Origin: Methanosarcina mazei S-6
Lineage (GTDB): Archaea > Halobacteriota > Methanosarcinia > Methanosarcinales > Methanosarcinaceae
Direction of reading: 5' to 3'
Assembly: GCF_000970205.1 (NCBI RefSeq)
Contig: NZ_CP009512.1
Coordinates: forward strand, 3,534,001-3,598,000
DNA length: 64,000 nt
Below are positions 6,412 through 31,899 of the stretch, one piece after another. Numbering within the stretch: position 1 is the first letter of the stretch; every line of letters starts with the position of its first letter. A model generated the notes under the pieces. That model ran no database searches and was not told the DNA's origin. It saw only the letters and a program-made list of their open reading frames with translations. The position numbers were made by a program, and so were the translations under genes.

Positions 6412-6557
6412 GTCAAAAAACAGCGGATTCTCGCAACTGAAACTGTTACTGTACACCAGGAAGCTCCCGAAGGAAAAAACAGTGTACCCGCAAACAAAAT
6501 AATGATGGTTAAGCTGTAAATACTAAAAGGGCGAAATAGTATTCAAAAAGGGGAAAT

Positions 6558-6848
6558 ATGTATCTAAAGATCTATAAAAATGGAGAGCACGTGCTTGTTG
6601 CAGCCTGTGATGAGGAGGTGCTCGGAAAAACCCTGAAACATGGCAATACTATGGTAGAAATAAACAGAGCTTTCTATGAAGGAGAGCCTGTATCTGAGGA
6701 AGAACTGGAAAAAGCTCTGGAAGAAGCTACCACTGCAAACCTTTTCGGGGAAAAAACGATTAAATGCGCTATTAAATGCGGGCTTATCGATCCGGACTCT
6801 GTGATCGTTATAGACTGCGTACCTCATGCCCAGGTGTTTAGAGTTTAA
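6558..6848 (+). CDS. DUF424 family protein
   Basis: 96 residues, matching the size and sequence style of the archaeal DUF424 family: an N-terminal YLKIYKNGEHVLVAACDEEVLGKT segment in short form, a central FYEG segment, and a hydrophobic C-terminal strand ending HAQVFRV. The function is unknown; the family is widespread in archaea, often near translation or information-processing genes. An AAGGGGAAAT ribosome binding site lies just before the ATG. The gene lies 146 bp after mcm on the same strand. Confidence 0.75.
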   Translation: MYLKIYKNGEHVLVAACDEEVLGKTLKHGNTMVEINRAFYEGEPVSEEELEKALEEATTANLFGEKTIKCAIKCGLIDPDSVIVIDCVPHAQVFRV

Positions 6849-6978
6849 AAAGCCTTGTGACATTTAAACAGGTACTTTAACTGTTAAGAGGGTGGGCAGT
6901 CCCGGTTGAAGTCTCCGGACAGCTCTACCAGTCCAAATAAAAAAAGCCTATAAAAAGAAACTACAGAATCGTGATACT

Positions 6979-7602
6979 GTGAGCGGAAACATTGAAGAAG
7001 CCGGGATCAGAATACTGCCAGAAGGGGAACTGATCTCCAGGGTTGTAGAAAAACATAAAAAGTTTCTGGAAGAATATCGGAAAGAATTTGAAGAACTGGA
7101 CAGCAAGCTGAGCCAGTTTGAAGAAGATGCAAAAAATGCAAAGATTTCCAGAACCCGGATAGCAGAGCGAAAAGAAGTCCTGAAGGAAAAGAGACAGCAG
7201 TTTTATCATCAGGTAGAAGGACTGCTCGAAAAGGATCTCTTCCCGAAGCTGGACCCTGTAACTGCTGATAAAATAAAGGAAGACATTAAAAAACTCAAAG
7301 GACAGATCGAACCCGAAGAAGAACAGGATCTTAAGAACTCTTTTATGAAAAACCTGGGCGAACTTATCAAAGAGAAAGAGACAGGAGAAAGCCTTCTCCA
7401 GCAGGTCAACGCCAGATTGGACGAAGCCGGCAGCTCAAATATTGAGCTGAAGGAAATAAAAGAGTCTGAAAAACAGCTTGAAGAGGATGATGGAAGCAAA
7501 AGCAGCGAAATTTCCAAAAGCAAACCCCAGCACAAATGGCTCAGCACTAAAATAAAAAGTCATGAAGAAGCCCTGAGTTACTGGGAAAAACAAAAAGCAT
7601 GA
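6979..7602 (+). CDS. coiled-coil protein, partner of the next coiled-coil gene
   Basis: 207 residues from a GTG start. Almost the whole chain is charged and helical with heptad-like spacing (EEYRKEFEELDSKL and similar), so a long coiled coil is likely; no enzymatic motif or membrane segment is visible. A degenerate acidic, Ser-rich linker lies near residue 160-175. It ends 30 bp before a second coiled-coil gene on the same strand, suggesting that the two are co-expressed and may form a hetero-oligomer. Function unknown. Confidence 0.7.
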   Translation: MSGNIEEAGIRILPEGELISRVVEKHKKFLEEYRKEFEELDSKLSQFEEDAKNAKISRTRIAERKEVLKEKRQQFYHQVEGLLEKDLFPKLDPVTADKIKEDIKKLKGQIEPEEEQDLKNSFMKNLGELIKEKETGESLLQQVNARLDEAGSSNIELKEIKESEKQLEEDDGSKSSEISKSKPQHKWLSTKIKSHEEALSYWEKQKA

Positions 7603-7632
7603 ATTGTTTCGGAAACACGTGGGTGGTAAGAC

Positions 7633-8595
7633 ATGAACAACGACGTTTCAACAGCAGAAACTGCAACGGCCGACCTTTCAAACCTTAATGAACGGGAGCT
7701 CAAGGGCAAGGTTAACGAGCTCAGGAGCAGGATAGAGAAAAGCGAAAGGCAATTGGCTTCGATTTTCAAGGATCTGAAAATAAACAGAACCGATATTGAC
7801 GAACTTAAAGCAAAGAGAGACACTCTGAACCAGCAGGTAAAGGAAAGGGTTGCAAAAGCGCAGGCACTTAGAGACCGCCGGGATGAAATAAATAAACAAA
7901 TTGGGGAATACAAAGAGAAGAGAAGCGGGATCAATTCCAAAACCCAGGAACTTTTTTCAGGGATTGCGGAGCTCAAAGAGAAGCGTGATGAATGTAATAA
8001 ACTATCCCATGGAAGTGTTGAATCCCTTTCAAAAGCTTATGAAGCTGAACTTGACGCCCTGTTTAATAAAGAACTCCCCCTTGCAGTTGAGATAAAAATA
8101 ATGCAGAAGCTGGATGACCTGAGTAAACGCCTTGATGCCGCAACGAAGGCTAACGAGCTTCATTCGCAGATCCAGGAGAGTTATAAGGAATCCAAAGGTA
8201 TTCATAAAGAAGGGGACGAGTTCCACGAAAAAATCCAGGCACTTTCGGATGAGTCTCAGGCGTGCCACCTGGAAATGCTTGAAAATTTTAAGGCAGCAGA
8301 TGAGATCCGAAAAGAAGCAAATATGTACCATGCCCAGCTTACCGACAAAATTGCAAATATAAATTCCATTAAAGAAAAAATCGACCCCCTCAAGAACAAT
8401 ATTGCTAACAGTCGGAAAGAACTTTCATTATATCTCGATAAATTAAAAGATCTCCAGTTAACAAAAGATGAGCACAAAGTAAGCCAGAAACACAGCGATG
8501 CACGTGAAAAGCTTCAGAAAAATGCTCGCCTCAGCCTGGAAGACCTCAAACTCCTTATAGAAAAAGGAGACGTAAAATTCTCCACAAATGAATAA
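7633..8595 (+). CDS. archaeal coiled-coil protein (COG1340-like)
   Basis: 320 residues, nearly all predicted coiled coil (ELKAKRDTLNQQVKERV and related heptads). It resembles the conserved archaeal coiled-coil family sometimes misannotated as phosphoserine phosphatase; no HAD motif is present, so I reject that name. A GGGTGG ribosome binding site lies 6-10 nt before the ATG. An IS66-type element sits at its end: the 8-bp target duplication starts at the second base of the TAA stop, so the insertion left the reading frame intact. The original downstream sequence continues at 10131. Confidence 0.75.
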   Translation: MNNDVSTAETATADLSNLNERELKGKVNELRSRIEKSERQLASIFKDLKINRTDIDELKAKRDTLNQQVKERVAKAQALRDRRDEINKQIGEYKEKRSGINSKTQELFSGIAELKEKRDECNKLSHGSVESLSKAYEAELDALFNKELPLAVEIKIMQKLDDLSKRLDAATKANELHSQIQESYKESKGIHKEGDEFHEKIQALSDESQACHLEMLENFKAADEIRKEANMYHAQLTDKIANINSIKEKIDPLKNNIANSRKELSLYLDKLKDLQLTKDEHKVSQKHSDAREKLQKNARLSLEDLKLLIEKGDVKFSTNE

Positions 8596-8609
8596 GAATT
8601 GGTAACTGC

Positions 8610-10043
8610 TCAGAGTATAGTTAACGGCGCTCCTATGAGCGCCGCACGAATACCCTCTAAAACAGGTAAACCGTTCTTTTTTCCTGTAGAAATGTACGCC
8701 CTAATTCTGCAGAAAGCTTGCGCTCCCATTGCTTTTCTGAAAGTTCCCGATATTTTCTGCTGTAGTTTCATCATCCTGATATCTCTTTCTGCCTGATTAT
8801 TATCAAATGGAACTTTCAAATCTGTCAGGAATCTCAGAATCTTTTCTTTGTGTTCTATAAACCTATCCAGCAGATTCCTTGATTTTGTTTTTGGATTTTT
8901 ACCGCGTTTTCCCTGTTTTTCAGGATTTAGAGAATGCGGATTTTCTTCAAGCGCTCTAATGATAATTGCATCAAACCTTTCTTCCAATGCTTTAATTTGC
9001 TCAAAATCAGGTTCTCTTAATTGCTCTTTACACTCATCAGTGTATTTCTTCATCTCAGTGAGCAGTTCATTCATCTCTTTAGCCCATGTCTGTTTATAGT
9101 TCTCTTCAATTCCTGTAAGTTCTCTCTGTAAATGAGCGTTACACAGAGCATGATCACAATCATAAACGTTGTAAGGTTTCCATCCATCATGAACTGCTAC
9201 TCCCTTAAACTTCGGAAGAATTCCCATAGCATCTATTGCTTCTGCTCCTCTTTTTGTATGAGCAAAATAACATGTGTATTTTTCATTAGAAGCTACATGA
9301 AGCCAGTGTCTTTTTCCTTCAATCTTCATACCAGTTTCATCAAAATTGATTACAGGCGAGGCTAATAACTTCTCTCTAATAACGTTTTCAAATTCCTCTA
9401 AATTCTGGAAACATTCTCTTTCTGCTCTAATTATCGTAGCAGGACAGATTTTTATTCCCATAATGTCTTCAAATAACTCAGAAATTCTATCATAAGGAAC
9501 AAACTGGTAATTTTTACAGTAAATAGCTGAAGCTAAAATATTAGGGCCATACTGAACCGGATATTTCACTGATTCGGGAAAAACGGCTTTATTCAACTTT
9601 CCACAACAAGGACAGGTTTTAATCTGACTTTTATGTTCTGTAACAATTAGATTTACGGGAGGAATGTCAAAGACCTGTCTTCTCTCATAAGCTTCAACTT
9701 CAACATTCTCAAGGGTAGATCCGCATTCTTTGCAGCAGGTCAAAGAATGTTCTATTACCTACTCAGGATGATCAACCATATCAAGAGTCGTGCCTGGATG
9801 ACCTTCCTGACCTCCAGGTTTCTTCCCGCTTGGTTTACGCAGACTCTTGGGATTAGGTTTCTCTTTGACAAAATAATCAGTAGAAGGAGGTCGACTGCTG
9901 TTACGACTGTTTTGATTTAAACGAGATTCTAAGGCTACAAGTCTTTCAGTGAGTTCTTTAACTTGAGATTCTAAACTCTCAATGTAAGCTACAATAATTT
10001 CAGGATTTGAAGCACAGTAAGAAAGAATCTCATCACGTTTCAT
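8610..10043 (-). CDS. IS66-family transposase with one in-frame UAG (possible pyrrolysine)
   Basis: 477 codons if the TAG at 9759-9761 is read as an amino acid (codon 95). Before it lies the usual N-terminal coiled coil and a Pro/Lys-rich segment (KKPGGQEGHPGTT). After it, in the same frame, come the zinc-finger-like CCKECGSTL, then the DDE core: NFDETG, VHDGW and NNQAERDIR. No other stop or frameshift is present. In Methanosarcina UAG can be decoded as pyrrolysine, and transposases with in-frame UAG are known there, so full-length protein is plausible. The alternative is a nonsense mutation; restart at the TTG at 9743 would give only the catalytic part. Confidence 0.88.
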
Positions 10044-20925: not shown

Positions 20926-22124
20926 GGTCGTGTCCTCAAATCATTGACTTAGTTTTATATAATCTTGAATCTATTATTATTTGGGGGCATCTTAATCACT
21001 TCTGAAATCGATTTTTCACAATTTTTTTGCTGGAACAAAGACTGCACTGATTATGGAATTAAAAATCAAGGGAATATAGTCCTTAAAGAAAGATATGGTA
21101 AAAATAACCATGCTCTTTTTAAATGTAAAACTTGTAAAAAATGTTTTAGTGAAACCAAAGGTACAATATTTTTCGAATTAAACACTCCAGATGAAGAAGT
21201 TCTAAGGACAATAGCTATGCTTCCTGAAAAAGGCAGTATTCGTGGAGTTGCAAGAGCTACTGGACATAGTAAAGACACTATTTGTAGATGGCTTGAGATT
21301 GCAGGAACCCATGCAGAAGAAGTTACAACTTATTTCCTCAAAAATCTTAATCTTACGAGAGTAGAGGTTGATGAGATCTGGTCATATATAAAAAAAAGCA
21401 AAAAAATGTGACTGACGAGGATTCTGAAGAGTGTGGGGATGTGTATTCACTTACAGCAATCAAAAGTGACACAAGATTGCTCCTTTCTCATCATGAAGGA
21501 AAACGTAGTGCTGAGGATGCTATAGAGTTATTTAAAGAAGTTGAGAAGATGCGTTCCACATCTTCTCCTATTCCTGTATTTACCTCAGATGATTGGGATG
21601 CCTTTGAAGAAGCACTTATAAACGTTTATGGTAAAATCGAGTTGCCACAATACAAAGGTATCGGAAGAAAACCGCTACCTAAACTGGTTCCACCTGATGA
21701 TTTAAAATATGTCAAAGTATTGAAGAAAAAGGTAAAAAATTATGTAGTTGAAACAGTTCAACGTATCATCTTTGGAGATCCTGATGAGATATTCGAAATG
21801 CTTGGAGCTGATGCGGATAGTTATATTGGAACTTCTTATGCAGAAAGGATTAACCTTACGATAAGGACATCTCTTGCAAGATTTATAAGAAAAGGAATGA
21901 ATTTCAGTAAAACCAAAAGGATGCATCAGAAAGCTATTGATTTATTCCAGGCATGGTATAACTTTATAAAACCTCATAAGTCTCTAAGGCTAAAAATAGA
22001 TTCTGGAAACAGAAAATGGTTTCAAAGGACTCCAGCTATGGCAGAAGGAATAACTGATCACATATGGAGTTTAAAGGAACTATTAACATTTAGAGTTCCT
22101 GTTCAATAATATGAGGACACGACC
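20926..22124. mobile_element. IS1-family insertion sequence
   Basis: 1199 bp. Ends are GGTCGTGTCCTCA (20926-20938) and its exact reverse complement (22112-22124); similarity continues about 10 bp further in. It is flanked by a perfect 8-bp duplication GAATATAG at 20918-20925 and 22125-22132, which fits IS1. It carries two overlapping reading frames joined by a run of seven A, the usual architecture of IS1 with a -1 frameshift. It lies between thpR and dacZ and breaks no recognisable gene. Confidence 0.93.
20965..22109 (+). CDS. IS1-family transposase made by -1 frameshift (orfA 20965-21411, orfB 21408-22109)
   Basis: The first frame (148 codons, TTG start) has a zinc finger (CxxD...CKTCKKC) and an HTH (GVARATGHSKDTICRWLEIAG), then the first catalytic Asp in VEVDEIW. 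The second frame begins within it and holds the second Asp (FTSDDWDAFEEAL) and Glu (SYAERINL). A slippery A AAA AAA at 21400-21406 is in the right phase: slipping back one base after codon AAA at 21403-21405 joins the frames and gives about 381 residues. This matches IS1 InsA/InsB-type expression. The alternative is a simple frameshift mutation; the intact inverted repeats and target duplication argue against long decay. Confidence 0.85.
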
Positions 22125-22480
22125 GAATATAGATACCCTGAAGAATTGTAAACTCGTGTGAACATAATAACAAATAGAAAAAGAAAAGAAAAGAAAATAA
22201 GTATCTGAAGTTGAGAAAAAGATAGTAAAGAAAAAGAGAAAAATGGGGTCAAACACAGAACAATTATAATATATCAGATATTACACTAGGAAATAAACAG
22301 GCTTATTAAGTATGCAGTTACCGTTAATGTTAACTGCAAGAAATAATGTTAACCGGTGGAAATAACACTTATCCACAGAAACAATAATTAACTTAAAAAT
22401 CCAACACCAGATTATAAAAATAAACTTAGAGTAAAAAAAGCAGGACTTATAAAATGATTGCGTAAAAAGGGGTGAGTGAC
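22125..22480 (+). other. AT-rich gap before dacZ
   Basis: The IS1 target duplication occupies 22125-22132. The rest is A-rich and without a gene. A TTAATGTTAAC-type palindromic stretch lies at about 22324-22352. The dacZ ribosome binding site GGGGTGA is at 22469-22475. Confidence 0.4.
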
Positions 22481-23356
22481 ATGGAAAGAGCACGTGTAAT
22501 TGCAGAAGCGGCAGCCCATATTTCCCGGGAACTCGGTGCTGCCGCAATTATGGTCTCCGGAGATTTGAATTTTGAAGGGATTGAAACCGGAGAAATTCCT
22601 GTATATTATATTTCCATGCGCCCTAAAAGCATAATAGACCACCTCGTAGCAACCAGCAAAGATGGAAAAAGTCCTGTAAAAGAACTGGGTGATCAGCTCA
22701 CCAGGGAAGCTTCGGGAAATGTTGAATACGTGCAGCATGCCGCAGCTATAGAATACGCACTTGAAGGCCCCAAAAACGGGATTGTGGTAGGGGTTATTGA
22801 AACCCGCGGGTCCAGCTCCATTATAGTCCATAACCTGGATGACAACCCTCTCATAAAAGCTATGAAAGAATGTGAAGAGAGAGTCAACCCTGAAGTAATG
22901 AATGCAGTCCTGAAAATCGCTTTTGATATCGCCCTTACGGGCAGGGAAGGAAAAAAAATAGGGGCTGCCTTTATTGTGGGTGACTCCGAAGAAGTCCTTA
23001 AACGCTCTCACCAGATAATCCTTAACCCTTATGAAGGCCATGAGGAAGCCCACAGAAACATACTCGACAGAAGAAACTGGGAGTCTATAAAGGAGTTTGC
23101 CCTGCTTGACGGGGTTTTTGTAATAGACGAGACTGGCATTGTCCGTGCAGCAGGGAGATACCTTGACGTGGACGGAAAAAATATAGATATTGAAAAAGGG
23201 CTTGGTGGACGTCATGTCTCAGCAGCTGCCATCAGCAGGGATACGGTAGCAATTTCAGTTACAGTTTCAGAGTCAGGTGGAGTCCTCAGAGTATATAAAG
23301 ACGCAAAAGAAACCATTTGCATGGAGTCCTTACAACCTGCATCCAGATACGTATGA
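22481..23356 (+). CDS. dacZ: archaeal diadenylate cyclase DacZ (c-di-AMP synthase)
   Basis: 291 residues from the ATG at 22481, preceded by GGGGTGA; a GTG at 22472 lies within that site. The N-terminal half is the family's pyruvate-kinase-like domain. The C-terminal DAC domain shows LLDGVFVIDETG, the GRYLD segment and GLGGRHVSAAAISRDT, matching the DGA and RHR motif positions of DisA_N-type cyclases. It joins two ATP into c-di-AMP, a second messenger linked to osmotic and potassium homeostasis in archaea. A DUF1614 membrane protein follows 160 bp downstream. Confidence 0.92.
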   Translation: MERARVIAEAAAHISRELGAAAIMVSGDLNFEGIETGEIPVYYISMRPKSIIDHLVATSKDGKSPVKELGDQLTREASGNVEYVQHAAAIEYALEGPKNGIVVGVIETRGSSSIIVHNLDDNPLIKAMKECEERVNPEVMNAVLKIAFDIALTGREGKKIGAAFIVGDSEEVLKRSHQIILNPYEGHEEAHRNILDRRNWESIKEFALLDGVFVIDETGIVRAAGRYLDVDGKNIDIEKGLGGRHVSAAAISRDTVAISVTVSESGGVLRVYKDAKETICMESLQPASRYV

Positions 23357-23516: not shown

Positions 23517-24236
23517 ATGAGCAGACAGATTTTTTACATGCCTTTCAGCCTGAGATTCCTTTTCTTATTAATAATCATAACAATCTTCGGACTGGGTTCT
23601 CTGTTTCTGGGAGTCATAGTTTCTGCTTTCATGAAAATAGGATTTTCCGCAGAGGACGCCCTCTTAATTCTCTTCCTGTCTCTCCTTGGAAGCGGAATCA
23701 ATATCCCGCTGACAACTCTGAAATCCGATATTCCGGTCGTCAAGGATAATTATATAAAGTTCTTCGGGATTTCCTACAGGATTCCTACCCGCCAGATTGT
23801 CAGGAATGAAACCTTACTTGCTATCAATGTGGGAGGAGCGGTTATCCCTGTCCTGATTTCCGCTTACCTTCTTACGCAATTCCCTTCTTCTCTCCTTCTT
23901 GCAGGAGCCGGTGTGGCGATTGTTGCAATTGTGACTCATTCCGTAGCAAGACCGATCAAAGGAGTGGGTATTGCAACCCCTGCTCTGATCCCACCCCTTA
24001 CATCTGTCCTTTCCGCAGTCCTGCTCACCTCGATAGTCCATATTCCAGGCTGCCCTGCAGAACCGTGCCGTGTTATTATTGCCTACACCGGAGGAGTACT
24101 CGGGACCCTCATAGGAGCTGACCTGCTTAACCTGGGAAAAATTAAGAACCTTGGAGCTCCGGTTGCAAGCATAGGAGGAGCAGGCACCTTTGATGGGATA
24201 TTTTTAAGCGGGTTTATCGCCCTTCTCCTGATCTGA
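23517..24236 (+). CDS. DUF1614 integral membrane protein
   Basis: 239 residues with about six to seven hydrophobic segments (FLFLLIIITIFGLGSLFLG at the N-terminus). The polar motif GSGINIPL, the segment GGAVIPVLISAYLL, and a C-terminal GGVLGTLIGADLLNLG with GGAGTFDGIFLSG match the DUF1614 family of archaeal and bacterial membrane proteins. Function unknown; no transport mechanism can be assigned. The last codons (CTC CTG ATC TGA) resemble the tandem repeat that begins at its stop codon. It may be linked to dacZ by position. Confidence 0.8.
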   Translation: MSRQIFYMPFSLRFLFLLIIITIFGLGSLFLGVIVSAFMKIGFSAEDALLILFLSLLGSGINIPLTTLKSDIPVVKDNYIKFFGISYRIPTRQIVRNETLLAINVGGAVIPVLISAYLLTQFPSSLLLAGAGVAIVAIVTHSVARPIKGVGIATPALIPPLTSVLSAVLLTSIVHIPGCPAEPCRVIIAYTGGVLGTLIGADLLNLGKIKNLGAPVASIGGAGTFDGIFLSGFIALLLI

Positions 24237-24469
24237 AAAAATCCTCCTGACCTGAGAAAATCCTCCTGACCTGAGAAAATCCTCCTGACCTGAGAAAATC
24301 CTCCTGACCTGAGAAAATCCTCCTGACCTGAGAAAATCCTCCTGACCTGAGAAAATCCTCCTGACCTGAGAAAATCCTCCTGACCTGAGAAAATCCTCCT
24401 GACCTGAGAAAATCCTCCTGACCTGAGAAAATCCTCCTGACCTGAGAAAATCCTCCTGATCTGAAAAAA
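24234..24469. repeat. 19-bp tandem repeat, 12 units, starting at the DUF1614 stop codon
   Basis: The unit is TGAGAAAATCCTCCTGACC. The first copy (TGAAAAAATCC...) begins with the TGA stop codon at 24234, and twelve copies run with near-perfect identity to 24461. The final copy has CTGATC, the same as the gene's own last bases, and a partial copy follows. The pattern suggests the array grew from the gene's 3' end by repeated duplication. 19 bp is not a codon multiple, so it is not coding. Confidence 0.93.
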
Positions 24470-26138: not shown

Positions 26139-26534
26139 AAACACCATCACTCATTTTAATATAAATTTAATAATTAATTCAACGGAGGAATTAATTATAA
26201 GCAAATATTATTATAAACAAATCTAAAAGTAACAACAAATAAAGAAGAGTAGTTAATAAATTTTACGAATTTGAATCAAAAATAAGAAAGATAACACTGA
26301 AACAGGACATAAAAAATAAAAGAGCTGCTTCCCTCTCCTCAATGTCAGGGGGAAAGGAATTAACATTAGAAAGAAAACAAAAATAAGAAAATAAAATAAC
26401 GAAAAAATAAAAAACAAAAATACAAAAAATGAATGAAAATTTAAGTAAATAATAGACAGTTAACGGCTGAATATTAACAGGCCTGCACAGGATCTTAACA
26501 GGTCTGCACAGGGTCTTAACAGGTCTGCACAGGG
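26139..26534 (-). promoter_or_regulatory. S-layer gene upstream region
   Basis: About 395 bp of very AT-rich sequence between pelota's stop and the S-layer gene. TATA-like stretches on the - strand occur at about 26195-26225, where the S-layer promoter would be expected. The interval 26475-26537 is a tandem repeat described separately. Confidence 0.4.
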
Positions 26535-26537
26535 TCA
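26475..26537. repeat. 21-bp tandem repeat, three units, starting at the pelota stop codon
   Basis: On the - strand three copies of a 21-bp unit, beginning GACCCTGTGCAG and ending CTGTTAA, follow one another. The first starts at the second base of the pelota TGA stop codon (26535-26537), the last has two changes. The pattern repeats what is seen at rfcS and the DUF1614 gene with a different sequence. Confidence 0.88.
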
Positions 26538-27587
26538 GCCTGTTACTTTGAAACGGAGCAAAGCTGCAATTCCTCCAAGTTTGTGAAGTTTTTCTCCGGG
26601 CTCAAAGGCCGTGCTGAACACAACAACTTTTCCCTGAGCCTGTTCGACCTCCATAAGTAGTTTATCTATATCCTCACCTTTTTCCCGCCCTTCACGCAGC
26701 GTTTCGTCAGCTATGAGCAGGGTTTCAACAGCCCCGTAACCAAGAGCATTTTTCACATCTGCAAAACCGTAAGCTGCTTTTCCGTCCATAGAGATTTCCC
26801 TGATAAGGTCTTCCATGAGAGAGGATTCCCGGGCTATTCGGGACTCCTGCATGATCCGGTCCACCGCTCCTCTGCGGAGCACCTCCTGAAACCCGGACAT
26901 ACCTATCATGGACGTATCTTCAGTCAATGCCTTAGAAGCCATTTCAGACTCAGTTTCATTAAAATATTTCAGGAAATCTTCTTTGGTGAAACCGGGCCCT
27001 GCAATCACTATGGAAGCGTCTTCAGGAACTGCGTGCCTGAGCTGTTCAACAATTTCCCTGAAAAACTCATTCCTGAGCCCGGTCTCCCGCTTCCCGGAGG
27101 ACTGCCTGATATGAGAATAGACTTCGATTCCATAGTGGCGCACAAACCCGATATCTGCGTCACCCTCCTCAACCGCTACAATAACAACTTTTGGGCGCTT
27201 TCCTGCTTCTTCGGCGTCCTGAATGCGCTGGAGCTGGTCGTTCTTCCAGTGCTCCTTAATGATGGAAATATTGGTCCCTATTTCCACATTGAGTGTGTGA
27301 TAGGAGCCTGTGTCCATTCCGTGCTCAATCGGCCCGTGTATTCTCAGCCTGTTTGCAAATTTATGGAACTCCAGTTCTTCAACCCTTATCCCCAGCCTTA
27401 CCTTTACCTTCTCAACCTTTTCCGGGCGGAGTTTGTCGCTTGCAGAATCGGCTTTCCTTCTGGTCAGAGCAAAGACCATGTCACCTTTTTCAATAATATA
27501 CTTCAGGTGCCAGAGATCGTCAAGAGTCTCGGCTGTTACGGCAATTTCCCCTTCCCGGCCTTTTAGAGAACGGTTTGTAACCCTCAT
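26535..27587 (-). CDS. pelA: mRNA surveillance protein pelota (Dom34)
   Basis: 350 residues, the normal archaeal length. Features include the N-terminal Sm-like domain (MRVTNRSLKGREGEIAVTAE), a central RNase-H-like eRF1 domain 2 (VVIVAVEEGDADIGFVRHYG), and a C-terminal eRF1_3 domain (VETLLIADETLREG). Unlike eRF1 it has no GGQ motif. It enters stalled ribosomes with aEF1A and ABCE1 to split them. The start codon overlaps the stop of rqcH (ATGA), so the two are translated together. Confidence 0.96.
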   Translation of the reverse strand: MRVTNRSLKGREGEIAVTAETLDDLWHLKYIIEKGDMVFALTRRKADSASDKLRPEKVEKVKVRLGIRVEELEFHKFANRLRIHGPIEHGMDTGSYHTLNVEIGTNISIIKEHWKNDQLQRIQDAEEAGKRPKVVIVAVEEGDADIGFVRHYGIEVYSHIRQSSGKRETGLRNEFFREIVEQLRHAVPEDASIVIAGPGFTKEDFLKYFNETESEMASKALTEDTSMIGMSGFQEVLRRGAVDRIMQESRIARESSLMEDLIREISMDGKAAYGFADVKNALGYGAVETLLIADETLREGREKGEDIDKLLMEVEQAQGKVVVFSTAFEPGEKLHKLGGIAALLRFKVTG

Positions 27588-29923
27588 TCCTTTTTCACTC
27601 CGCGCATTTCAATTATTTCTTCATTTCCCTCTCTGGCTTCAGCTTTAACTTTTACTTCACTGCCTTCCCCTATTTCTTCTGCAAATTCTTCATCTGCGAA
27701 CTCTTCTCCTGCATTTTCTCCAGATTCTTCATCAATTTCACCTTTAAGGTCTTCAAATCCGGCTTCCATTTCAGGGGTTTCGTATCCTTCACCCTCAGGC
27801 CCGAAACCCTGACCTTTCTTTTCCGGCTTCTGGTTCCTCAGATCTGATTCTCCGGCGGGGATCATCATGGCAATCTGGTCAGGAGATGCAATTTGCTTCA
27901 CAAAACGAGGGTCATTGAGTTCATCTGCATAAATCCTGTAGATCTTTTTTGAAATATCATTCTGATTGAATTTGCCGGGAATAATTTCAAGAATATAGTC
28001 TCCGTGCTTCCTGACCGAAGAAGCAGGCCCTCCAATAATCCTTGTCTCGCCTTTAAGCTCAAGACCAACTGCAATGCCAAGAGGGACGTCTTTGAAGTAA
28101 TTGCGCTCACCGCGGATAACAAATGCCCCTTTTTTCAGGTACTCTCCGGATTCCGGGGTCTTTGTCACCTGTTCAGATTTAATCCAGTAACAGTCACCGC
28201 TGAACTGTCCGGCTTTCCAGAGACTCGAATAAGAAACCGCAAACTGTGCAACTTCCTGAAGCGTGGAATCCGGAACCTCCTTCCCCCCAGTCTTTACAAC
28301 CGTGAGAGGAGCGCCCGGTGTCTGTGTATGAAAAACGATATCTCTTTTTTCCATGTATTTTTTGAAAATTTCTTCGTTTGTATCGGCATCCCTGCCGCCC
28401 ACGACCAGGAAGCCGTCTGAAGACACAAACCACCTGAACCGGTCATACCAGTGCTTTTTCCGGGAAGCCTGCAGCTTCCTGCCAGCTTTTGCAGATTTTG
28501 TAGCAGCCTTTTTCTCCATAGCTTTTTTAGTGTCCTCAATAGCCCGGATAGCTCCGTCCTTCTTTTTAGTGAACTTTTTAACCTTTTCATAATATTCCTG
28601 GGCATTCTGAGGCACAGTCTTCCGGATATCAAGATTTATGCTCTTTCCGTCGAGATTGACAGTTACAGTTCCGGTTTTCTGGTCAATATTAGTAATTGTC
28701 TGGGCTGCAGGAACGGTCTTTTTTGCCTGTTTCAGGATGGAGCGAATTTCATCCCAGGAATAACCTTTTGCCCTTGCTCCGTTAAGTACTGAAAAAAGCT
28801 CTTCGATAATCTGGTAATTGGCATATACGGTTTCTGCAAGGGCATTGTTTTTCTCAATTTCCTTTTCGAACTTTGCAAGGCTATCTTCCTGCTGCATGAG
28901 CCGCCTTTCAAAGACCCCAAGGGTTTTTTCCTTCTTTTCGGCTTCCTTTACCTCTGCGACCTGCTCAAGAGCCTTTTTCCCGAAAAACTCGTCAAGTGCA
29001 GTATTAAAGGAATCGAAATATTCTTTTTCGTATTCTGAATAACGGTTAAGGTCAAAAGGAACTACATCGAAGGTTTCCATTTTCCCATTAATTTCCTGCT
29101 TTATATGCTGAGGCCTGAGCCCCGGAATAAGAGGTCCGGTTTCTGCTCCGGGCCTGTCTTCAATTTCAGCACCGCCTTCAGGCTCGCCTTCAGTTCTGGC
29201 AGCGTCCCTCGCTCTGAATAGAGGGGAAAAAAGGTCCTGAAGCGCCTCACGCAGCTTTTCAGCATCCTCTACTGTAGCTTCTTTTGCAGGCCTGGACTTG
29301 TTTATTCCTGCGCGTGCACAGGCTTCTTCTGCCAGGACTCCTCCGAGGTTGAACCTTGTAGCAATAGTCCGGACTATATCAGCCGTTGATTTAGAAAATG
29401 CGTCCATAAGGTCGGAAACCTTAGCCTCGATGGGGCTCAACTGCGCCTCCGGAAGCTCGTAAATTTCTCCGCTCCTGAGCCTGCGGTCCTTGAGGGTTAC
29501 GGGGTTCATGGGCAGGATGATTTTGTTTTCCGAATCCACTATCAGGACATTGCCGCGCGCAAACAGTTCAACAATGAGTGTGCTTCTAACTCCAGCTCTC
29601 TCAATCCCTATTTTTATGATCCTGTCGAAGTCATGCTGCTCGACGGATACGATCCTGCCTCCCATCAGGTATTTTCTCAGAAGCATGGGGAAAGCCTGAG
29701 GAAGAGTGGGGCTTGGCCGGATGTGTTTTGTCATATGGAGGCGCTTTCCCGCCTCAATAACCAGGTTGTCCCTTCCCTGGTGAAAAACGTAAAGGTTGAT
29801 GCGTATCTCCTCGCTGGCTGGCTGGTAGATCTTTCCGATCTTCGCATCAATAATAGACCTGGGACCTGCTGACAGTTCGGCAACAACCGCAGCAACGTCT
29901 GCACTTGACATATCCTGTTTCAT
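27584..29923 (-). CDS. rqcH: ribosome quality control protein RqcH (NEMF/Rqc2, NFACT)
   Basis: 779 residues. NFACT-N domain at the N-terminus (starting near MSSADVAAVVAELS), helix-hairpin-helix region with the coiled coil in the middle, NFACT-R domain with the sequence WYDRFRWFVSSDGFLVVGGRDADTN cut short here, and an acidic C-terminal tail. This protein binds split 50S subunits with peptidyl-tRNA and, in bacteria and probably archaea, adds alanine tails. It is encoded immediately before pelA with a 4-bp overlap, coupling ribosome splitting with nascent-chain handling. A later ATG at 29911 is possible. Confidence 0.95.
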   Translation of the reverse strand: MKQDMSSADVAAVVAELSAGPRSIIDAKIGKIYQPASEEIRINLYVFHQGRDNLVIEAGKRLHMTKHIRPSPTLPQAFPMLLRKYLMGGRIVSVEQHDFDRIIKIGIERAGVRSTLIVELFARGNVLIVDSENKIILPMNPVTLKDRRLRSGEIYELPEAQLSPIEAKVSDLMDAFSKSTADIVRTIATRFNLGGVLAEEACARAGINKSRPAKEATVEDAEKLREALQDLFSPLFRARDAARTEGEPEGGAEIEDRPGAETGPLIPGLRPQHIKQEINGKMETFDVVPFDLNRYSEYEKEYFDSFNTALDEFFGKKALEQVAEVKEAEKKEKTLGVFERRLMQQEDSLAKFEKEIEKNNALAETVYANYQIIEELFSVLNGARAKGYSWDEIRSILKQAKKTVPAAQTITNIDQKTGTVTVNLDGKSINLDIRKTVPQNAQEYYEKVKKFTKKKDGAIRAIEDTKKAMEKKAATKSAKAGRKLQASRKKHWYDRFRWFVSSDGFLVVGGRDADTNEEIFKKYMEKRDIVFHTQTPGAPLTVVKTGGKEVPDSTLQEVAQFAVSYSSLWKAGQFSGDCYWIKSEQVTKTPESGEYLKKGAFVIRGERNYFKDVPLGIAVGLELKGETRIIGGPASSVRKHGDYILEIIPGKFNQNDISKKIYRIYADELNDPRFVKQIASPDQIAMMIPAGESDLRNQKPEKKGQGFGPEGEGYETPEMEAGFEDLKGEIDEESGENAGEEFADEEFAEEIGEGSEVKVKAEAREGNEEIIEMRGVKKE

Positions 29924-29999: not shown

Positions 30000-30120
30000 C
30001 GAGTTGCGCCACCCGAGTTCCGTCTCGGGAGTACGCGGTCCTTCCCGAATTGCGCCTCGGGAGTACGCGGTCCTTCCCGAATTGCGCCTCGGGAGTACGC
30101 GGTCCTTTTCGGTCGCTTCG
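30000..30120. repeat. GC-rich 32-bp tandem repeats with inner palindromes
   Basis: Three copies, the first partial, of a 32-bp unit ending AGTACGCGGTCC at about 30013-30041, 30042-30073 and 30074-30105. Each carries CCCGA and TCGGG arms that could form a hairpin. A related motif lies at 24696-24714. GC content stands out from the AT-rich surroundings. It lies upstream of rqcH, so it could fold in the leader; a mobile palindromic (REP-like) origin is possible. Confidence 0.75.
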
Positions 30121-30230: not shown

Positions 30231-31899
30231 CAGGTTGTCTCAAAACCATTTTTAATTCTACAATTGGGTAATGCCCTTTCAATTTTTATTTCATTTCAAC
30301 AAGAAAAAGTAAATTTTCATAGCTCAACATAGCGTATTTGTCATTCTTGCTTGAATTCTCCTCTTATTCCATCCTTTACTTTCTCCTCCAACTATCATTT
30401 TCAGCATTTCTTTCAGGTTTTTCCCTTGTCTTTTTATGAAATCTGCTATTTTCTTTATATTGTGTACGGTACATATCATAACAAATTCAATTCCTGTTTT
30501 CCTTATTCCTCTCAACAGAAATTCCCTAAACCCTCTATCCTGTTTCATTTGACCAAACACAGGTTCTACGGTAGACATTCTTTTCTGATACTTTTCCGTA
30601 CCTTTTTCTGGTGTTCAGTTTAGCCCTCATATCCTCCATTAAATGTTCTCGAGGATCTCTTGTAATCGTCCTTTTTCCACTCTCAGTACATGCATTTTTC
30701 AACACACACTGAGAACAATAACTACAGACATAATACCTTAAATCAGGTTCACCTTTCCTCTTTTGTATTCTTGAAAAGGGAATTTCAAAAGCAGCAGGAC
30801 AATAATAGCAGTCTTTTTCTTCGTCGTATTTAAAAAGAGACTTTCTGAACTTCCTGGTTTTTCCTTCTTTTTCAGCTTTATAGAAGTTGTCAGGAATATA
30901 AGCATCAATTCCTTCTTTCTGTAAAAATTCCAGATTCTCATATGAAAAATAACCTGCATCTGCAAGCACGATTGTTGGTTTATATCCCAGTGTATTTTTT
31001 ACATTCTGTATCATTGGTTCTACTTGATGCAGGTCGTTTTCTTCGTTGACAACGTCTGCTGCAACGATAATTTGTTCCTTTTCGTCAACAGCAACCTGAC
31101 AGTTGTATGAAGGTTTCTTGCTCCCATCTTTATATTTCATAATTCGAGCATCGTTGTCTGTGATGTTTACTTTTTTCAGCTTTTCTTCATCAAGCTTCTT
31201 TTTAGCGTTTTTAATCTTCTCTAATCTTTTCTTCTTGTCAACTAGCTCTTCTGAATCTGATATGGTGTTGAGTCACCATAAATTTCATCTTCATACTTAT
31301 CTGTCTCAATACTCTCTTTTAGTATCCGATCTATTTCTTTTTCGAGAGAATCCGAATTCTTGCTTTGTCTTGATGAAGCATTTGCCTTGATCTTTGTTCC
31401 GTCAATCGAGATACTGGAACCAATCATATCCATTTCTTTACAAAAAGTGACAACCTGGGAAAATATCTCTTTAATAGGGCCAAGGTGAGTTGAACGGAAT
31501 CGACAAATAGTATGAAAATCAGGTTTTTGCATGGCTGCCAGATACATAAATGCAGTATCAGTTTGAGTCATTTGTTGCAGTTTACGTGAACTTCTAATGC
31601 CTATAAGATAACCATAAAGTAATATTTTTAAAAGAATTATTGGATGATAGGCTGGGCAGCCTTCCTTAGAATAAGTGGATTCAATAGCAGTGATATCAAC
31701 GACATCTACGATGTCGTTTAGTACTCGGGCGAGATGATTTTCAGGAACAAAATCTTCCAGGTTTAATGGAAGTAAAAACTGCTGCTTTTGATCGTATTTT
31801 CTAAACATGGGAAACACTGGAATTTAGTTTTGTAAAAAAGATAAAGATTACGGGTTTCTGACCCAAATGTGCGATCAGGTATAGTTTTGAGACAACCTG
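30231..31899. mobile_element. IS1182-family insertion sequence, decayed
   Basis: 1669 bp. Perfect 16-bp inverted ends CAGGTTGTCTCAAAAC (30231-30246) and GTTTTGAGACAACCTG (31884-31899), flanked by a 4-bp duplication TAGA at 30227-30230 and 31900-31903. The inner transposase gene, on the - strand, is split into three frames. The ends are intact, so it could still move if a transposase is supplied. It lies 40 bp beyond the end of the FGE-like gene. Confidence 0.9.
30324..31817 (-). pseudogene. IS1182-type DDE transposase broken by two frameshifts
   Basis: Three pieces: 31242-31817 (N-terminus, DUF772-like domain, first Asp in SIDGTKIKANAS), 30535-31140 and its in-frame upstream extension (second Asp in LADAGYFSYENL), and 30324-30578 (Glu in STVEPVFGQMKQDRGFRE). 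The first break is near 31245-31260, the second near 30575-30590, where one base shifts GTATCAGAAAAG between frames. The frames of the first and third pieces are equal, so the two lesions compensate. No slippery run with proper phase is obvious at either point, hence I treat them as mutations rather than recoding. Confidence 0.85.

Follow-up and report, generated by a model that had tools for sequence, protein, structure and literature searches.

Why do two genes of ribosome rescue share four nucleotides in Methanosarcina mazei S-6, and does this overlap mark a device of gene expression or a partnership of the encoded proteins? The genes are rqcH (27584-29923, minus strand), coding for the archaeal homologue of RqcH and NEMF/Rqc2, and pelA (26535-27587, minus strand), coding for Pelota/Dom34; both lie in the stretch of 64,000 nucleotides analysed here (NZ_CP009512.1, positions 3,534,001 to 3,598,000), which we call the window. 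Pelota splits stalled ribosomes together with ABCE1, and the large subunit with its remaining peptidyl-tRNA is where NEMF/Rqc2/RqcH acts. Judged by gene context, rqcH-pelA is probably (we would say about two chances in three) the Methanosarcina remnant of a ribosome-rescue island of the phylum, in which emc6-abce1 and rqcH-pelA stand mostly back to back. The linked pair, often beside abce1 and emc6, suggests proteins that work as one rescue machine.

Identity and linkage of rqcH and pelA

RqcH and Pelota of the window are plain members of their families. RqcH (779 aa, ATG start) matches the profile NF041120 (RqcH_arch) with 792 bits against a cut-off of 400. Its NFACT-N, coiled-coil/middle and NFACT-R domains follow each other in the order expected for RqcH/NEMF, PF05833 (NFACT-N/middle, residues 8-474, 289 bits) preceding PF05670 (NFACT-R, residues 496-605, 112 bits). 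Residues D100-R101 (29621-29626, minus strand) are invariant across 12 aligned archaeal RqcH rows and align with D97-R98 of Bacillus subtilis RqcH, the pair of tRNA-Ala recognition, whose double exchange led to loss of the tRNA-Ala specificity according to an excerpt of PMC8373112. Pelota (350 aa, ATG start) is matched over its full length by the equivalog TIGR00111 (343 bits, cut-off 178), while the aRF1 model reaches only 81 bits and stays under its cut-off of 235. It is composed of the three eRF1-like domains eRF1_1, eRF1_2 and eRF1_3 (PF03463, PF03464 and PF03465), and a check of its protein sequence found no GGQ motif. Pelota proteins in general are not known to carry this hydrolysis motif. 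Dom34 is described as catalytically inactive in an excerpt of PMC6514570. The genome, a single contig of 4.14 Mb, encodes one RqcH and, above the family cut-off, one Pelota. The rqcH stop codon TGA (27586-27584) overlaps the pelA start codon ATG (27587-27585), and the shared ATGA (27584-27587, minus strand) can be read directly; the initial annotation had described this 4-bp overlapping pair, with coordinates, strand and ATGA that are exact.

We compared the positions of RqcH, Pelota and ABCE1 in 196 genomes of the same phylum that are at least 90% complete. These represent species and not independent events. For the initial annotation, a pair confined to this genus with no functional dependence would have told against its reading. 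The pair extends far beyond the genus: pelA was directly downstream of rqcH (same strand, no more than 400 nt apart) in 92 of the 196 genomes, including G154 with a pelA fragment at a contig end, and near it, that is within 7 kb downstream, in 26 more; no genome of this sample had pelA near rqcH in any other arrangement (0/196). For two unlinked single-copy genes about one linked genome in 196 is expected (14 kb of about 2.5 Mb), and the partnership exceeds chance. The link occurs in 21 of the 28 families of the phylum and in all 32 genomes of the window's family. In the other genomes pelA was found far away on the same contig (17/196), on another contig (60/196) or not at all (1/196, G229), and some of the other-contig placements (60/196 for pelA, 81/196 for abce1) come from broken assemblies. 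A separate class survey revealed several genomes of family f3 (f1 to f32 and g7 are arbitrary labels of families and a genus) in which pelA precedes rqcH by a few kb on the same strand. At one f3 locus (L061), pelA is followed by DUF434/DUF5616 and a RimK-type ligase (6515-8061 and 8060-9170), the latter close to MptN with 347.7 bits against a cut-off of 350, and rqcH comes after one more open reading frame (ORF).

To look beyond the phylum, we scanned 80 named pelA loci, among them loci of other archaeal lineages, with flanks of 0-6 kb. As contig ends often lie less than 6 kb away, strong negatives are limited to loci with full flanks, and Thermoplasmatota, Thermoproteota and Asgard archaea lie beyond the sample. 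Of the 15 named genomes that we queried for RqcH, 14 encode the protein, among them Thermococcus, Methanobrevibacter and Hadarchaea; it was not found in the metagenome-assembled genome (MAG) of a Methanothermococcus. One Thermococcus MAG carries abce1 (840 bits) directly after pelA on the same strand (L082:5934-8934), apparently a separate linkage, and this adjacency was not seen in the seven other Thermococci loci scanned alongside.

Several points weigh against the view that rqcH-pelA is the remnant of a rescue island. In the phylum sample the link is absent from seven of the 28 families (f2, f6, f8, f10, f11, f21 and f28). Beyond it, rqcH did not occur in the 0-6 kb flanks of pelA in Thermococci, Hadarchaea, Methanobrevibacter, one member of the Methanobacteriaceae and one Methanothermococcus. 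Linkage must therefore be dispensable for function. Further, ABCE1 also serves normal termination and its company is thus not specific for rescue, and for alanine tailing in archaea no report was found in the open-licence PubMed Central literature. The common occurrence of four-base overlaps in this genome, the weakly folded junction RNA and the loss of the overlap in two Methanosarcina loci, all described below, count on the same side. Because rqcH is missing from the outside flanks although 14 of 15 genomes encode RqcH, we regard the link as a feature of the phylum as far as sampled. Linkage throughout the Euryarchaeota was rejected on the basis of the pelA loci without rqcH in their 0-6 kb flanks. 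The earlier notion of a single archaeal ribosome-rescue unit thus holds in one half: gene context supports a unit that reaches beyond the genus, but the word archaeal is too wide in view of these outside lineages and the seven unlinked families.

The wider island with abce1 and emc6

The unit initially proposed is also too small in content, as abce1 and a gene for an EMC6-like membrane protein belong to a wider island. We clustered the neighbours of rqcH from greedy longest-ORF gene calls, which missed rqcH itself at 8 of 60 loci and failed on GC-rich ones; this call was used to find conserved neighbours, and positions were taken from a hidden Markov model search over all frames. Two genes recurred upstream of rqcH on the opposite strand. 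The first codes for ABCE1/RLI (at L077, NF009945 with 906 bits, a ferredoxin-like PF04068 domain and two PF00005 stretches) and the second for the EMC6-like protein, two rows of which match PF19094 (EMC6_arch) with 102 and 106 bits. Further EMC6-like rows were found with a model built from 12 rows, and these 12 match by construction. ABCE1 rows were restricted to open frames of more than 400 aa, as PF04068 also matches a second protein of about 160-260 aa, presumably TSR3.

Within 7 kb of rqcH, abce1 was present in 52 of the 196 genomes from 12 families, divergent in 44 and co-directional in 8; for 8 of the 196 its placement is lacking. In the close-read loci that hold both abce1 and rqcH, emc6 adjoined abce1 in every case (16/16 and 20/20). 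In 13 of 20 loci abce1-emc6 on the left stood back to back with rqcH-pelA on the right. The other seven, all of family f9, had the order rqcH-pelA-emc6-abce1 in one direction, as did L069, while L068 of the same family kept the divergent order. All four genes together with the ATGA overlap were found in a Methanocellales MAG (L146) and in the Methanosarcinales genome Met33H (L155). In M. mazei S-6 emc6-abce1 has moved: abce1 lies at 1041746-1043555 of the chromosome, at a distance of 2.5 Mb from the window, and is closely preceded by emc6.

Could this gene order simply be frozen, the neighbours having been inherited from the ancestor of the phylum for no functional reason? All linked genomes do belong to one phylum and many to the same genera, and the 118 linked genomes correspond to far fewer independent events. 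However, the other neighbours of the pair vary by family while the set persists. Family f9 has turned emc6-abce1 round and placed it downstream of pelA with the set intact, in three Methanoperedens-like loci (L113, L120 and L157) pelA precedes rqcH by about 2.6-6 kb in the same orientation, and the Thermococcus MAG has pelA directly before abce1. Since the set was rearranged in f9 and still kept together, selection accounts for it better than frozen order, which we consider unlikely.

Another explanation would make the island one of normal ribosome recycling and membrane-protein insertion, in which ABCE1 works with an insertase of the EMC6/YidC type and rqcH-pelA travels along as a passenger. 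Among 20 loci where abce1 and rqcH are apart, 14 had emc6 directly adjacent to abce1, one at about 1.7 kb and five not at all, and archaeal EMC6-like proteins have been proposed as partners of archaeal YidC in PMC8675477, a paper that mentions neither ABCE1 nor an operon. As emc6 accompanies distant abce1 too, we are dealing with two conserved pairs, emc6-abce1 and rqcH-pelA, that are joined in part of the phylum. Against the passenger role stands the fact that rqcH-pelA occurs without emc6-abce1, at least in part, in 66 of the 118 linked genomes, including all 32 of the window's family. Moreover, neither Pelota nor RqcH is known to take part in normal recycling. We therefore rate this explanation as improbable, and less likely than frozen order. 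The EMC6-like gene beside abce1 nevertheless offers an unexpected lead that may tie ribosome splitting to membrane insertion. At its boldest, the lead would point to a membrane-side machine in which Pelota, RqcH and ABCE1 join the EMC6-like subunit of the insertase in acting on ribosomes that stalled while feeding a chain into it, splitting and tailing being coupled to the clearing of the insertase. We see only a slim chance for such a machine; if it existed, the linkage of emc6-abce1 and rqcH-pelA would represent the first genetic hint of archaeal ribosome-associated quality control with a dedicated membrane branch.

Returning to the rescue island, we propose the following sequence of events. 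On a stalled ribosome, Pelota would enter the vacant A site, and ABCE1 would join it in splitting the particle. RqcH would then take over the 50S subunit still holding peptidyl-tRNA, recruit tRNA-Ala through its conserved D-R pair and lengthen or tag the stalled chain. The genes may stay together because their products act in sequence on the same particle and are needed at the same time. That RqcH follows Pelota in archaea, and that it adds a tail, we infer from bacteria and eukaryotes; a role of the EMC6-like protein would likewise follow from gene context. For eukaryotes, splitting by Pelota/ABCE1 followed by NEMF/Rqc2 is outlined in an excerpt from the introduction of PMC8373112. In its section 13, PMC6514570 treats a rescue role of archaeal Rqc2 as undecided, and we found no description of an rqcH-pelA/abce1-emc6 island in the open-licence PubMed Central literature. 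An island that ties RqcH to Pelota and ABCE1 over many families provides strong context evidence for an action of RqcH directly downstream of splitting, and Methanosarcina with its simple rqcH-pelA pair would be a tractable host.

The overlapping junction and the tail of RqcH

What, then, does the overlap contribute? It could be a strict translational-coupling device that fixes the ratio of RqcH to Pelota, which is how the initial annotation had understood it. As a baseline we used the window and 20 stretches of 20 kb from the same genome (464 kb in total), where 200 ORF pairs follow each other on the same strand, 62 of them closely spaced. An ATG or GTG start is available at -4 in 14 of these 62, and a 4-bp overlap is hence the usual shape of a tight junction in M. 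mazei S-6. By this baseline the overlap itself was rejected as a special feature. The junction RNA was less stable than its shuffled versions (z = +1.5), a stable structure was not seen, and there is accordingly no hairpin that translation of rqcH would need to open; RNA structure at the junction was thus ruled out as well. Between positions 21000 and 34500, no Rfam element was found at the gathering threshold.

Our survey of the overlap covered 62 chosen adjacent loci, one or a few per family and not a random draw. The overlap does recur in several other families: the pelA start was exactly at -4 in 37 of the 62 loci, or in 36 if the doubtful L190 is left out, where a GTG lies at -4 and the conserved start is an ATG at +11. 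The start was at most 20 nt from the rqcH stop in 52 loci. A separate comparison of junctions yielded no start for L161 and L162. The -4 position is the rule in f9 (9/9), f17 (6/6) and f20 (3/3) and is also present in f13, f15, f22, f26, f32 and Methanosarcina. This recurrence speaks for strict coupling, whereas starts at -11, -8, -1 and +3 in other families speak against it. In the sampled genera next to Methanosarcina, rqcH ends 2-84 nt before pelA, and for this reason the overlap appears to have been regained in Methanosarcina by lengthening of RqcH, which again could be taken as favouring coupling.

This lengthening is visible in the protein. In the relatives tested, Methanosarcina and genus g7 excepted, RqcH stops at a terminus that matches PAGESDL, in the sister genera mostly as GESD(I/F)-K plus one or a few residues. 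In Methanosarcina and g7 an acidic tail of 22-118 aa follows GESDL, a comparison that leaves out L185, where a wrong internal anchor gave a discarded 285-aa "tail". The tail of the window's RqcH (27587-27838, minus strand) follows PAGESDL and comprises 84 aa with 28 D+E and 11 K+R. The tail evolves fast: between Methanosarcina rows, its identity is 0.47-0.56 compared with 0.82-0.89 for the RqcH core. In the AlphaFold model, which has helices at 306-400 and 437-493, residues 705-779 are predicted to be disordered at a predicted local distance difference test score (pLDDT) of about 27; the model as a whole (mean pLDDT 63, predicted template modelling score 0.34, 12 alignment rows) was drawn on for this disorder.

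Inside the last rqcH codons, which read RGVKKE, lies a Shine-Dalgarno-like site of pelA, GGAGTGA (27595-27601, minus strand), that is conserved in Methanosarcina loci and probably serves as the pelA ribosome-binding site. The pelA site GGAGTGAAAAAGG is carried by the tail codons for RGVKK. The simplest reading is that in Methanosarcina the overlap arose newly as RqcH grew into the pelA leader, and that the pelA start site constrains the DNA coding for the last part of the tail. Two loci seem to have lost the overlap again. Compared with L182, L181 has a one-base gap, and the resulting frameshift puts the rqcH stop 67 nt before pelA; the DNA that follows, including the site, has hardly changed. 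In M. spelaei (L128) the distance from the rqcH stop to pelA is 211 nt, and the pelA site shows one change. At L181 (5430-5590), the gap in the RqcH tail in front of an unchanged pelA leader could reflect a true loss of the overlap or an error in the sequence. With the site GGAG(T)GAAAAAGG nearly unchanged in both loci, pelA can start without an overlap.

Together with the frequent -4 starts in the genome, the spacers of the sister genera and the junction lacking stable RNA structure, a pelA that keeps its own probable ribosome-binding site makes the claim of a fixed ratio too strong, and strict coupling is as doubtful to us as frozen gene order. For the rescue island, the ATGA overlap would rather be a compact operon junction at which ribosomes ending rqcH start pelA. 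From overlap and orientation, rqcH and pelA may form a single co-transcribed operon. The overlap probably helps their co-expression but is neither unusual nor indispensable.

Surroundings of the pair and related systems

Three 21-bp repeats (TTAACAGGTCTGCACAGGGTC) are found at the end of pelA and just behind it (26474-26536), and three 32-bp direct repeats (CCCGAATTGCGCCTCGGGAGTACGCGGTCCTT) upstream of rqcH (30012-30107), at the position expected for a promoter. Further upstream, transposase-like pieces in two frames (30535-31817; ORFs 30535-31140 and 31242-31817, minus strand) look like a disrupted insertion element located between rqcH and an FGE-sulfatase gene. On the other side, 22472-23356 encodes a DacZ-type diadenylate cyclase (PF21754 and PF02457). 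In the neighbour clustering, six loci, all of them Methanosarcinaceae-like, carry a gene of the diadenylate cyclase cluster C8 downstream of the pair, on the opposite strand. Just after a DUF1614 gene lies a tandem array (24225-24469) of 12.9 copies of a 19-bp unit with 98% match, and its minus-strand ORF, which codes for a repeated peptide, is probably not a gene.

Among known systems, the archaeal Pelota-ABCE1 complex of Pyrococcus furiosus (3J15) is related through the window's Pelota, which matches 3j15_A with 302 bits. The difference lies in gene context, as the Thermococci loci examined do not have pelA beside rqcH. With the bacterial RqcH/RqcP system of B. subtilis, the archaeal protein shares the NFACT-N, middle and NFACT-R domains and an aligned D-R pair for tRNA-Ala (excerpt of PMC8373112). 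In contrast to that system, archaeal rqcH is linked to the genes of Pelota and ABCE1, the archaeal-eukaryotic splitting factors, and RqcH of Methanosarcina bears an acidic tail. Pelota, ABCE1 and a NEMF homologue also make up the parts common with eukaryotes, where Pelota(Dom34)-Hbs1-ABCE1 precedes NEMF/Rqc2 and its C-terminal alanine-threonine (CAT) tailing, and the best match of RqcH in the PDB is indeed NEMF (9gy4_Z, 190 bits). What sets the archaeal system apart from the eukaryotic one is that its genes are physically linked.

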